A stretch of DNA of 64,000 nucleotides from Leptotrichia massiliensis (GTDB lineage Bacteria; Fusobacteriota; Fusobacteriia; Fusobacteriales; Leptotrichiaceae). The notes beneath the pieces were generated by a model that saw nothing but the letters and a program-made list of their open reading frames with translations, searched no databases and was not told the origin of the DNA. Both the position numbers and the translations under genes were made by a program. This document shows positions 23,986 through 63,448 of the stretch, piece after piece. The stretch is taken from positions 310,001 through 374,000 of the forward strand of contig NZ_FNVZ01000004.1 in the NCBI RefSeq assembly GCF_900104625.1. The letters are read 5' to 3'. Every line of letters starts with the position of its first letter. The stretch's first letter is position 1.

Positions 23986-24285
23986 CTAATTATCCGCATT
24001 TTCTCCAACAACTTTCGGCACAATTATAAATTCCTCATCCTTATTAGTCGAATTTTCTAAAATTTCTTTCTTAATTCCAGCATCCCTAACTTTATCTTCT
24101 CTCAATTTATCTTTTAAGTCCAGCACATTAAAAAGTGGCTCCACATCAGTAGTATCAACCCCATTCAACTCTTCCATATGCTCAAATATTTTATTCAAAT
24201 CCACCCTAAATTTCTCAATTTCACTTTCCGAAAATTCCAATTTAGAAAGTGCTGCTATTTTTAAAACATCTTCTTTGCTTAACAT
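23986..24285 (-). CDS. gatC: Asp/Glu-tRNA amidotransferase subunit C
   Basis: 99 residues, the usual length. Seen: ALSKLEFSESEIEKFRVDLN and the conserved VDTTDVEPLFNVLDLKDKLREDKV segment that wraps around GatA. It is needed for stable GatA-GatB assembly. It is the first Gat gene in transcription order; DUF4253, gatA, two lipoprotein genes and gatB follow. Confidence 0.95.
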   Translation of the reverse strand: MLSKEDVLKIAALSKLEFSESEIEKFRVDLNKIFEHMEELNGVDTTDVEPLFNVLDLKDKLREDKVRDAGIKKEILENSTNKDEEFIIVPKVVGENADN

Positions 24286-59519: not shown

Positions 59520-60674
59520 TCAGCTTTTTATATGATTTTTATCTTGAGTCTTCCCATCCCTTTCTTTTTCCTTTTTTCTCTCATTTTTCAAAACTTCATC
59601 CAGCAGCTTAATTACTCTTGTGTTTTCAAATTCTTTTCGATATTTTGATACCACATTATCATCAGCAACGGATAGCATTTGTGCAACCGCAAGATAAAGT
59701 GCCAACTCTGATTGTTCATTAAAATAAACATCTTCATAAGTTACATCCTTTGTTGAAACATTTTCTAAATAATATTTAACTGCACTTTCTATTCCATAAT
59801 TCATCATATTTTTTGCTATTTTTACCTCAGCAATTTTTAGCTTAAATCCTCGCACGTAGTCATCAGGTATTCCAAATTCCTTTTGATTTTTTTGAATTTT
59901 GAAATAATCAATTATTCTTTGATATTTATTAATTTCTTTCTTTTGACTATCCAAAGTTTCTTTTCCATTATCTAAAATTTCTTTCACACTTTCACCATAG
60001 GTCGCTGTATCTCCTAAAATCTCTTCTTCATTTGGACTTCCACCATCATCTTTATTTTGTATAATCCCCTTTTTATCATCATAAGAAAATCCATCTGGCA
60101 AATCATTTGCTTCACTATTAGTTTCTTCTCCCTCTTCAACAAAATAATCACCCAATGTTTCAATAAACATTACCATATCCAGATTTTCACTTAATGTATC
60201 GACAAGTTCTAATGCAACAGAATTCTTGTAACGACGTTTTATAAGATTGTAGTAAAATTTTGCTTTTTTTTCATCTCCTTTTAGTTTATAATAGGTAAAT
60301 TCGTTTGAAAGTTTATCAAATTGTGGTGAATATGGAGCGATTTTATCCATATATTCTCTTGCTTTCCTAAAGTCTTTCTTTCCACCAACCATATATGCCC
60401 CTACTAGAACTGATCCCAGTGTTTCGTTTCTTTCATCTTTTCCATATATTTCTTTTAGTTTTAAAAGATTATCTTTTTCTTTCCCATCTTCCGTAAAAAA
60501 ATTTTTTTCGTCTCTAATGTCATATTCAAACTTTATCGTTTCATCAATTACATCTTGCTTTATACCAATTTTTGAAAGTCTATCCTGTATAAGTTCAGCT
60601 CTAGTATATGCTGATAGTTCACCTCCCAATGTTAAAAGAAGTGGTAATGATAACGTTACAAACATTCTTTTCAT
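59520..60674 (-). CDS. Secreted helical-repeat protein, paralogue B
   Basis: 384 residues, signal peptide MKRMFVTLSLPLLLTLGGEL to SAY. The first mature segment ELIQDRLSKIGIKQDVIDET, then KFEYDIRDEKNFF, is shared with the upstream gene. The body is TPR-like (GAYMVGGKKDFRKAREYMDK, NEFTYYKLKGDEKKAKFYYN), with an acidic low-complexity insert near 195-235. Unrecognised family; the envelope location is inferred from the signal. Starts 18 bases after its paralogue ends. Confidence 0.65.
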   Translation of the reverse strand: MKRMFVTLSLPLLLTLGGELSAYTRAELIQDRLSKIGIKQDVIDETIKFEYDIRDEKNFFTEDGKEKDNLLKLKEIYGKDERNETLGSVLVGAYMVGGKKDFRKAREYMDKIAPYSPQFDKLSNEFTYYKLKGDEKKAKFYYNLIKRRYKNSVALELVDTLSENLDMVMFIETLGDYFVEEGEETNSEANDLPDGFSYDDKKGIIQNKDDGGSPNEEEILGDTATYGESVKEILDNGKETLDSQKKEINKYQRIIDYFKIQKNQKEFGIPDDYVRGFKLKIAEVKIAKNMMNYGIESAVKYYLENVSTKDVTYEDVYFNEQSELALYLAVAQMLSVADDNVVSKYRKEFENTRVIKLLDEVLKNERKKEKERDGKTQDKNHIKS

Positions 60675-60691
60675 AAACTTTCTCCTCTTTC

Positions 60692-61573
60692 CTAATTTAC
60701 CATTTTTGACAGAAAATCCTTGTCTTTTTCAGTTTCTTTCTGAATTTTTTTAGCAATCCAAGTATCTTCCAATTTTGCTCCATTACTTATTTTTAGTAAA
60801 TCTTCTTTTATTTCTTCATTCATTATTACAACATTAAAGTAAAGTATAACTTCAGCACGCAAATTATAATTTTGTATTTCCTCATTTACACTTTCATTTA
60901 CAATATTATCCAAATATTCTGCAACAGCCTGTTTCACTTCCCCTTTATCAAATAAATTACGTATTTTATTCAAATAGTAAGTCAACTTCATAAAATAATA
61001 TTCTTCATCAGAAACTCCCACTTTTCGACGCTCATTTTCATTTTTAAGTAATTTTAGCACTTTTTCGGTAAGCATCTGCTTTTCATCAAAATTTTTTGCC
61101 ACAAAAATTTTTGCTAGAGTTACCACAACTGTGTCGTTATATTTTTTAGGAATTTCATACATATATTTTTCAAAACTTGATATATCTCCCTGATCCAGGG
61201 CATACATCATTTTTGAAAAAGTTTTTTCATATTCATATGGTGTATATTTTACAAATAAATCAAGGTATTTTTTATAATCTCCACTTATTTTTGATTCAAA
61301 AATTGTAATCAAAGCCTGTGACGCTATATAATTTCTTTCGTCTTTTTGAAGCAATTTTTCCAGCTTTTGCACTCTCTCACGAATAATTATCTCATCATTT
61401 TCAAAATACTGTGTATCCCTAATTTCGTAGTCCAATGCCACCGTTTCATCAATTAATGCCTGCTTTAATCCAAGTTTTGATAATGTTTCTTGAATTTTCT
61501 CTTTCTGAGTAAAACCATATATCCCAAAATTTATCATTAAAAATATTCCAAAAATCAAAAATAATTTTCTCAT
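60692..61573 (-). CDS. Secreted helical-repeat protein, paralogue A
   Basis: 293 residues from the ATG at 61573 (AAGGATGTGG upstream; a GTG at 61582 would add three residues). Signal peptide MRKLFLIFGIFLMINFGIYG, then EKIQETLSKLGLKQALIDET and ALDYEIRDTQYFE, aligning with the next gene. Helical, TPR-like composition, Lys/Glu-rich. The family is not recognised. Tandem duplication with divergence is the simplest reading. Confidence 0.65.
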   Translation of the reverse strand: MRKLFLIFGIFLMINFGIYGFTQKEKIQETLSKLGLKQALIDETVALDYEIRDTQYFENDEIIIRERVQKLEKLLQKDERNYIASQALITIFESKISGDYKKYLDLFVKYTPYEYEKTFSKMMYALDQGDISSFEKYMYEIPKKYNDTVVVTLAKIFVAKNFDEKQMLTEKVLKLLKNENERRKVGVSDEEYYFMKLTYYLNKIRNLFDKGEVKQAVAEYLDNIVNESVNEEIQNYNLRAEVILYFNVVIMNEEIKEDLLKISNGAKLEDTWIAKKIQKETEKDKDFLSKMVN

Positions 61574-61702
61574 ATTTACCACATCCTTAAAATTTTGATA
61601 AAAATATTTGTGTATTTAATATTTATCTTTACAGCTATAACACTATATTATATCCCATATTTTCAATTTTCAAACACTTTTATTGTATTTTCTTTCACTT
61701 TT

Positions 61703-62467
61703 TTAAAAAGTTAAACTTATATTTATGCCTGCAAGCCGTAAAAAAAACTCTACAATTGTTAAAAATCCCTGTGTTAAAACTGTACTTCCCAAATAAACAA
61801 TTACAAAAATAATCAAAATTCCGTATCTTTCAATTTTATTGTAAAATTCCCTAATTCTATACCCTGAAAGTGAATACACTATTCTACCCCCATCTAACGG
61901 TGTTATCGGTATTAAGTTAAACAATCCAAGTAAAAGATTTATTAAATAAGTATAAAGCAGGATTGTCATAAAAATATTCTCAATATCCAGATATTTATTT
62001 CCAAATTTTAGTAATACAAGTGAAGTTCCCGCAAGAATAAAATTTACTACTATTCCAGCGATTGCAACACAAAATAACCCAAGCCGATGTGGTCTTAAAT
62101 TATAAAAATTAACTGGAACAGGCTTTGCCCAACCCACCAAAAATTTAAATCCGCTCAAAAGTATGAGAATAGGCAGAATTATTCCTGTAAAATCAATATG
62201 TTTTAAAGGATTTAGCGTTATTCTTCCTTTTCTTTTTGCGGTGTCGTCACCAAATTTGTAAGCCACATAGCCATGTGCCACCTCATGAAGAGTCATTGAT
62301 ATTACAAAAACCACAAGTGAAATTATCATGTCTCTTGAGATTTCTGCTGCAAAAAAAATCCTTCCAATAAAATAAATAATAATTGCAACAATAATCCCCA
62401 GTTTTATTTCTGAATATTCAGGATTTAAGACCTTAAATCTGTTATAATAATTTTTTACTATTTTCAC
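61703..62467 (-). CDS. Site-2 protease family membrane protein (M50)
   Basis: 254 residues, about six transmembrane segments. Zinc site HEVAHGYVAYKFGDDTAKRK (H61, E62, H65) with the GRITLNPLKHIDFTG loop and the third ligand in NLIPITPLDGGRIVYSLSG. This is the YwhC-like, PDZ-lacking subgroup; substrates are unknown. It probably cleaves membrane-embedded peptides. It forms a single-gene unit. Confidence 0.9.
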   Translation of the reverse strand: MKIVKNYYNRFKVLNPEYSEIKLGIIVAIIIYFIGRIFFAAEISRDMIISLVVFVISMTLHEVAHGYVAYKFGDDTAKRKGRITLNPLKHIDFTGIILPILILLSGFKFLVGWAKPVPVNFYNLRPHRLGLFCVAIAGIVVNFILAGTSLVLLKFGNKYLDIENIFMTILLYTYLINLLLGLFNLIPITPLDGGRIVYSLSGYRIREFYNKIERYGILIIFVIVYLGSTVLTQGFLTIVEFFLRLAGINISLTF

Positions 62468-62631
62468 AAAACTTCCTTTCCAAAATCGTATGTTTCTAAT
62501 TCATCTCTAAAATTCATCACCCCAAAATTTAGTTCCTTTTGAATAAATTATATCAAATTTTCCTAAAAATAACAAAATATTTTAAAAATTTGATGTAGTA
62601 AAGTATTTAAATCTTTTTTCACAAATAAAAA

Positions 62632-62655
62632 AACAACCCTTATATAAAAGTTGTT
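62632..62655 (-). terminator. Terminator at the distal end of the CRISPR array
   Basis: AACAAC (62632-62637) with GTTGTT (62650-62655); on the - strand it is followed by TTTTTTT. Placed 14 bases beyond the degenerate repeat, in the inferred direction of crRNA transcription. Confidence 0.6.
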
Positions 62656-62668
62656 GTTTTTAACGAAT

Positions 62669-62782
62669 AATTTAATCCTTATTTTAATGGATACTCTATT
62701 TTAACGAGTGGCAAAAGTCCACGATTATTTATTAGCATGCCACCAGTTTCAATCCTTATTTTAATGGATACTCTATTTTAAC
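62669..62782 (-). CRISPR. One-spacer CRISPR array, no cas genes in the window
   Basis: Two 37-base repeats, 62669-62705 and 62746-62782, share the last 32 bases (ATCCTTATTTTAATGGATAC then TCTATTTTAAC on +). They flank a 40-base spacer at 62706-62745. Read on the - strand the intact repeat ends GGATTGAAAC, giving the ATTGAAAC-type 5' handle seen in type I-B and related systems, so transcription is right to left. The left repeat differs at three bases at its handle end (ATTAAATT), as terminal repeats often do. A hairpin terminator follows. To the right, to about 63030, is an AT-rich stretch that could be the leader. The repeat does not resemble Cas13a-type repeats. Confidence 0.7.
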
Positions 62783-63033
62783 CCGTACTTTTGAGAAAAC
62801 CCTTTATTTATCGGTATTACAGAAATTTTTTCAGACAGTAAAATCGCATTTTTTTGCTTAATTTTTGTTATTTTTTGATGTTTTTTTAGCATTTTCCATA
62901 ACTCCTAGCCTGCATTTTTAGTGGCTTTAAATAGATTTTTCTCTAGTTTTATTATTTTTGGTAGTGGTAGGAATTTTTACCACAAATTTATTTTACCACA
63001 TTTTTTTGATTTTTCAAAGTTTTTTTTAAAAAA

Positions 63034-63055
63034 GGAGTATCAAAACTGATACTCC
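63034..63055 (-). terminator. Terminator after the three-repeat protein gene
   Basis: GGAGTATCA, four-base loop, TGATACTCC; perfect nine-pair stem with TTTTTT following on the - strand. Confidence 0.92.
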
Positions 63056-63087: not shown

Positions 63088-63399
63088 CTATTTTTTGAAC
63101 ATTCCAGTAACTTTGTCTGCTAATCCCTTAGCTCCTTCTACTGTCTTGTCTAATGCTTCTTCAGCACCTTTTTTAACATCTTGAACGACTTTATTATTTG
63201 CAGCTTTTTCTGCTAAATCTTTTGCTCCTTCAACTGTTTTTTCTAGAACATCTTCAGTTCCTTTTTTAATATTCTGAGCAACTTCACTTCCTGCAATTTC
63301 CTTTGTTTTGTCAGCAGCCTTGTCAGCTAAGTCTTTTGCTCCATCTACTGTTTTTTTAAGAGCATCTTCTGCTCCTTTTTTCAAATCATCAAAATTCAT
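63088..63399 (-). CDS. Small LEA-like protein with three internal repeats
   Basis: 103 residues from the ATG at 63399, which has GGAGGAAAAG 5-8 bases upstream; the ATG at 63414 would lie across that site. Three amphipathic repeats start at about residues 7, 45 and 76: KKGAEDALKKTVDGAKDLAD, KKGTEDVLEKTVEGAKDLAE and KKGAEEALDKTVEGAKGLAD. The composition (Lys, Ala, Glu, Asp, Gly; no Cys or Trp) is that of hydrophilic LEA or CsbD-like stress proteins, which are disordered or helical. No signal peptide. Function unknown. Flanked by the CRISPR array and glmS. Confidence 0.7.
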   Translation of the reverse strand: MNFDDLKKGAEDALKKTVDGAKDLADKAADKTKEIAGSEVAQNIKKGTEDVLEKTVEGAKDLAEKAANNKVVQDVKKGAEEALDKTVEGAKGLADKVTGMFKK

Positions 63400-63448
63400 A
63401 ATCTTTTCCTCCATTTTTATTATTATTTATAATTATTAAATAATTATC

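Follow-up and report, generated by a model that had tools for sequence, protein, structure and literature searches.

The window, that is, the whole 64,000-nucleotide stretch of Leptotrichia massiliensis DNA that was analysed, carries on the minus strand, at positions 62669-62782, two 37-nt repeats that flank a single 40-nt spacer. This locus is a genuine one-spacer CRISPR array. The repeats fall within the 23-50 nt range and are near-identical to each other, the spacer is unique and of similar size, and the intact repeat scores 44.3 bits against the Rfam family CRISPR-DR7, above the gathering score of 37. The same repeat family forms arrays of 3-17 repeats in related genomes, and its 24-nt core builds arrays in many phyla. 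The two repeats and the 40-base spacer proposed in the first-pass annotation, which had been made from the sequence alone, are thus confirmed, the spacer being exactly 40 nt long. The array and its immediate surroundings include the following features:

61703..62467, minus strand: flanking gene for an M50 peptidase, used as a synteny marker
62625..62658, minus strand: terminator-like hairpin with a T run (AACAACTTTTATATAAGGGTTGTTTTTTT) downstream of the terminal repeat, conserved at orthologous sites
62669..62705, minus strand: terminal CRISPR repeat with a degenerate 3' end (ATTAAATT), identical to the intact repeat at 34 of 37 positions
62706..62745, minus strand: the sole spacer, 40 nt, no protospacer found
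62746..62782, minus strand: leader-proximal first CRISPR repeat, intact, 37 nt (GTTAAAATAGAGTATCCATTAAAATAAGGATTGAAAC), Rfam CRISPR-DR7
62783..62987, minus strand: leader of 205 nt, from the promoter to the first repeat, 98% identical to the leader of L. hofstadii JCM16775
62988..63018, minus strand: conserved promoter motif found by motif search, TTTGAAAAATCAAAAAAATGTGGTAAAATAA (-35 TTGAAA, 16 nt, -10 TAAAAT, TG before the -10)
63034..63055, minus strand: intrinsic terminator serving the glmS/YtxH-like genes upstream, kept in relatives, which sets the array unit apart
63088..63414, minus strand: flanking gene for a 108-aa YtxH-like protein, used as a synteny marker

Transcription signals and the spacer

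The genome under study (G000; 2.54 Mb in five contigs, 99.97% complete by estimate) was compared within a set of 13 Leptotrichia genomes and 20 genomes from other genera of the family. Relatives referred to repeatedly below are L. buccalis C-1013-b (G005), L. hofstadii JCM16775 (G006), Leptotrichia sp. F0590 (G009), L. shahii JCM16776 (G010) and Leptotrichia sp. JMUB3936 (G016). The 31-nt promoter motif has 32 matches in 10 of the 13 Leptotrichia genomes and none with the reversed control pattern; a repeat of the same family follows downstream in 29 of the 30 matches inspected, at a distance of 199-208 nt in 25 of these 30 genus sites. The AT-rich leader and the promoter motif upstream of the window array are accordingly of the kind found at other arrays, with leader identity to G010 and G016 at about 91%. 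The downstream hairpin (62625..62658) folds as such and is also kept at both other sites of this repeat family in G000 (see below), although it scored below the threshold of the terminator scan that detected the one at 63034..63055. Given its own promoter, the glmS/YtxH terminator before it and the conserved hairpin after it, the array is predicted to be a transcription unit of its own. The right-to-left direction suggested by the first-pass annotation is supported by the repeat handle, the degenerate distal repeat, the upstream promoter with its leader and the downstream putative terminator, all of which are kept in relatives. A last repeat with a degenerate 3' end is also present at the orthologous sites of G005, G006, G010, G015 and G016, and copies identical to the intact repeat occur in arrays of G016.

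No protospacer with three or fewer mismatches is present in G000 and the 32 other genomes of the family, including any second match in its own genome; blastn against phage and plasmid records returned only chance-level E-values of 0.6-7, and three exact sub-patterns gave no match in IMG/VR, nor did two spacers from relatives when searched there for exact matches. Similarity of the whole locus to phage and plasmid DNA likewise yielded nothing relevant. The inverted GTGGCA/TGCCAC ends of the spacer, which had been considered unusual for a captured sequence, are real but unremarkable: inverted ends as long as its 6 bp or longer arise in 7.7% of shuffled sequences, and 6 of 49 spacers of the same repeat family contain an inverted pair of 6 bp or more. 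On the basis of these shuffles, the inverted ends are rejected as a sign of function.

The same site and other stations in Leptotrichia

The gene order glmS, YtxH-like protein, array, M50 peptidase is common to G000, G005, G006, G010 and G016, with 2, 3, 4, 4 and 8 repeats at this site, respectively. In G015, the promoter, the leader, one degenerate terminal repeat and the terminator are retained, and in G007 the array stretch is gone; G005 has lost the leader at this site despite having cas genes. Every spacer at this site is different, with none shared among the arrays, and no recognisable cas genes are encoded within the 20 kb stretches examined around the orthologous arrays. The YtxH-like protein contains internal repeats with a period of 93 bases. 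Farther along, at 59520-61582, the window encodes two adjacent, similar, secreted-looking proteins of 384 and 296 aa, the second without a Pfam match, and this pair is also conserved next to the array position in those relatives that have the same site.

With up to three mismatches, the window repeat is found in five other Leptotrichia genomes, whereas the 20 genomes from other genera of the family have no copy. The repeat is therefore far from being absent in relatives, an outcome that the first-pass annotation had named as evidence against an array. Its other such outcome, membership of the two copies in a longer dispersed palindromic family, can also be ruled out: copies outside this site are arrays or solo repeats located behind the same leader or promoter. 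The genus possesses several such promoter-leader-repeat stations with station-specific repeat variants, among them malQ/purN (G005 and G010), GTTAAAGTAAGTTATCC (G005, G010, G014 and G016) and GTAAGAATAGTGAATCC (G005 and G006).

Within G000, the search of the whole genome that had been proposed recovered only the two window copies at three or fewer mismatches to the repeat. A looser pattern reveals one more solo repeat on a different contig, and the leader search a second, degenerate one. The station at C5:1013778 comprises a full leader and one degenerate repeat; at C5:24080 (24080-24161), one repeat lies 14 nt past the promoter motif and is followed by a terminator, the leader being mostly deleted. 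The solo repeat at C5:24080-24161 appears transcribable by sequence, and a locus of the same form is found beside the same gene in another Leptotrichia genome (G014:C30:6175). At G012:C1:738344, the leader is cut and the repeat core is mutated as well.

Cas genes in G000 and in its relatives

The claim that no cas genes lie within 30 kb on either side needs to be amended. The sole cas locus of G000 is of type VI-A and starts past the right-hand end of the window, at a distance of 25.8 kb from the array (C4:398558-403797; L034:6558-11797); it encodes Cas13a (1140 aa, C4:398558-401980), Cas1 and Cas2 and includes a 36-nt repeat array. The 36-nt repeat (GATATAGACCACCCCAATATCGAAGGGGACTAAAAC; GATATAGACC...ACTAAAAC) differs from the 37-nt repeat of the window, so that cognate cas genes are still missing from the neighbourhood of the array, and this part of the claim holds. 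The type VI-A array consists of eight or nine exact 36-nt copies, with one or two more repeats after two ORFs (L034:13159-13252). The only Cas1 of G000 is the one that follows Cas13a, and its nearest model is of the type II kind; no type III or I-B Cas1 was found in the genome. Searches of G000 for Cas6 (PF10040, TIGR01877 and a genus-specific profile) and for RAMP proteins gave no match either, so that a functional type III system is improbable there; a cas locus missed in the five-contig assembly is unlikely yet possible. Type I-B is not a matching source for the array, because the I-B cas1 loci of the genus, assigned to this type following PMC6914741, carry repeats of about 29 nt with another sequence.

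In relatives, the window repeat family is found in loci that encode a 325-aa Cas1 (cas1b), Cas2 and a Cas4-like protein, and it is common to these loci and to type III loci, which places the array in the type III-A/III-D group. In G009 and G013, the cas1b loci combine the same repeat family (5-6 mismatches) with type III genes, namely Csm1, Csm3, Csm4, Csm5 and a Cas6 (III-A) in G013 and Cas10, Csx10 and Cas6 (III-D) in G009. In general, the type III-A or III-D genes either adjoin the cas1b-cas2-cas4 loci or are located elsewhere in the same genomes, and both III-A and III-D have been reported for named Leptotrichia relatives, with split loci in L. trevisanii (PMC6914741). A matching Cas6 is present in 6 of the 13 genomes (G005, G009, G010, G013, G014 and G016) and absent from G000, G006, G007, G008, G011, G012 and G015. 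At type III-linked loci of three species, a recurrent set of genes for an NrdD-like anaerobic ribonucleotide reductase, an NrdG-like activase and an EcsC-family protein is located between those for CARF proteins and Cas1; one instance is L062:5322-9407 in G009, others are L067 and L061, and a GTPase is added in G009 and G013.

Probable erosion of the array and its alternatives

The array is very probably what erosion has left of one station in a dispersed set of type III CRISPR arrays, because the same site carries larger arrays in relatives and because Cas6, RAMP and type III Cas1 were not found in G000. Of the three options offered by the first-pass annotation (a relic, an array served in trans by a distant type I-B or III locus, or a single guide kept for regulation), the relic is the best supported. 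The lineage would have lost its type III cas genes, after which recombination between repeats would have cut the array down until a single spacer was left, and no further spacers would have been acquired. A short transcript may still be made from the promoter; without Cas6 and the Cas10-Csm/Csx effectors, such a transcript would yield no guide and no immunity, and the resident Cas13a, with its different repeat, is not expected to use the array RNA. The array can probably still be transcribed, but its RNA would meet neither a processing enzyme nor an effector. Erosion is also seen elsewhere in G000, with one repeat each at C5:24080 and C5:1013778 and a truncated leader at the former. Across the genus, the number of repeats per genome under a loose pattern is 13-38 with a cognate Cas6 versus 0-13 without it (Mann-Whitney exact p = 0.002, uncorrected for kinship). 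The exception is G006, with 13 repeats and no cognate Cas6; a different type III system is present there, with a separate Cas6 and a neighbouring repeat that differs in sequence, and the G006 arrays may or may not be in use.

The least expected result is that leaders diverge no faster in genomes without cognate cas genes. Neither G000 nor G006 has a cognate Cas6, yet their leaders are near-identical (5 of 234 positions differ, 2.1%), with fourfold-site differences between the two genomes of 9.5% in glmS and 22.5% in the M50 peptidase gene, a comparison with neutral rates in which the flanking stretches themselves look recombined. G015 has a single repeat and lacks the cognate Cas6; its leader shows 13 differences to that of G010 and 14 to that of G016, no more than the 19 by which the latter two differ from each other. 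Beyond the array terminator, up to the M50 gene (62467-62620), the sequence is a mosaic in which G000 is nearer to G016 (13% different) than to its closer relative G006 (31%), and this mosaic hints at recombination around the array. The absence of faster leader divergence could reflect recent loss of the cas genes, local recombination or retained function.

An alternative is that the site is dormant: the leader, the promoter and at least one repeat would be kept, ready for re-arming by horizontally acquired type III cas genes. The stations do lie at constant chromosomal positions in several species, the type III cas genes are unevenly distributed, as the cognate Cas6 indicates, and the leader divergence just described is compatible with such a role. 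However, some stations decay, as with the cut leaders at C5:24080 of G000 and at G012:C1:738344, G005 lost the leader at the glmS/YtxH-M50 site while its cas genes are present, and no re-arming event was seen among the compared genomes; dormancy is considered unlikely. The broader proposition that fixed stations of promoter, leader, at least one repeat and terminator persist by selection in cas-less genomes, as seeds to be re-armed by a returning mobile type III cas module, is similarly unlikely.

A working array that relies in trans on a type III or I-B locus of the same cell would fit the relatives, given that in G005, G009, G010, G014 and G016 such arrays lie at a great distance from the type III loci. 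The option fails in G000 itself, where the near-complete genome yielded neither Cas6 nor RAMP nor any Cas1 other than that of type VI-A, and where the repeats of the I-B loci of the genus do not correspond; it is rated as very improbable. Even less credible is retention of the transcript as a small RNA with a regulatory role that needs no Cas proteins. This possibility draws on the predicted promoter and terminator of the array and on the orphan CRISPR locus of Listeria monocytogenes, for which a regulatory role has been proposed (cited in PMC8616872). Nevertheless, the spacer occurs only in G000 and has no second match in the genome, the spacers at orthologous sites all differ, and the locus transcript is predicted to fold no better than shuffled sequences (z = -0.52), so that the suggested single regulatory guide finds no backing.

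Taken alone, the locus is an ordinary orphan array, new in its details and ordinary in kind. Together with its relatives, it becomes part of a series in which the decay of one CRISPR site can be read (8, 4, 4, 3, 2 and 1 repeats) across the species of one genus, and which comes with site-specific repeat variants and with leaders common to several species. Leptotrichia is thereby a convenient test ground for the erosion of arrays after cas loss and for the survival of leaders by chance versus selection.

Degeneration is a usual reading of orphan arrays after cas loss (PMC8616872), and the window array resembles such orphan, or isolated, CRISPR arrays in that repeat, leader and spacer are present, the cognate cas genes are missing and the spacers are few. 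Unlike orphan arrays in general, the same site here can be traced across several species, from 8 repeats down to 1. The array shares with the type III-A (Lep2) and III-D systems of Leptotrichia (PMC6914741) the 37-nt ATTGAAAC repeat family and the splitting of arrays and cas modules across the chromosome, but differs from the genomes that harbour these systems, where Cas6, Cas10 and RAMP are present, in that G000 has neither Cas6 nor RAMP. The type VI-A (Cas13a) system of Leptotrichia, although co-resident at a distance of 25.8 kb, is distinguished from it by a different 36-nt repeat and a different Cas1 family.
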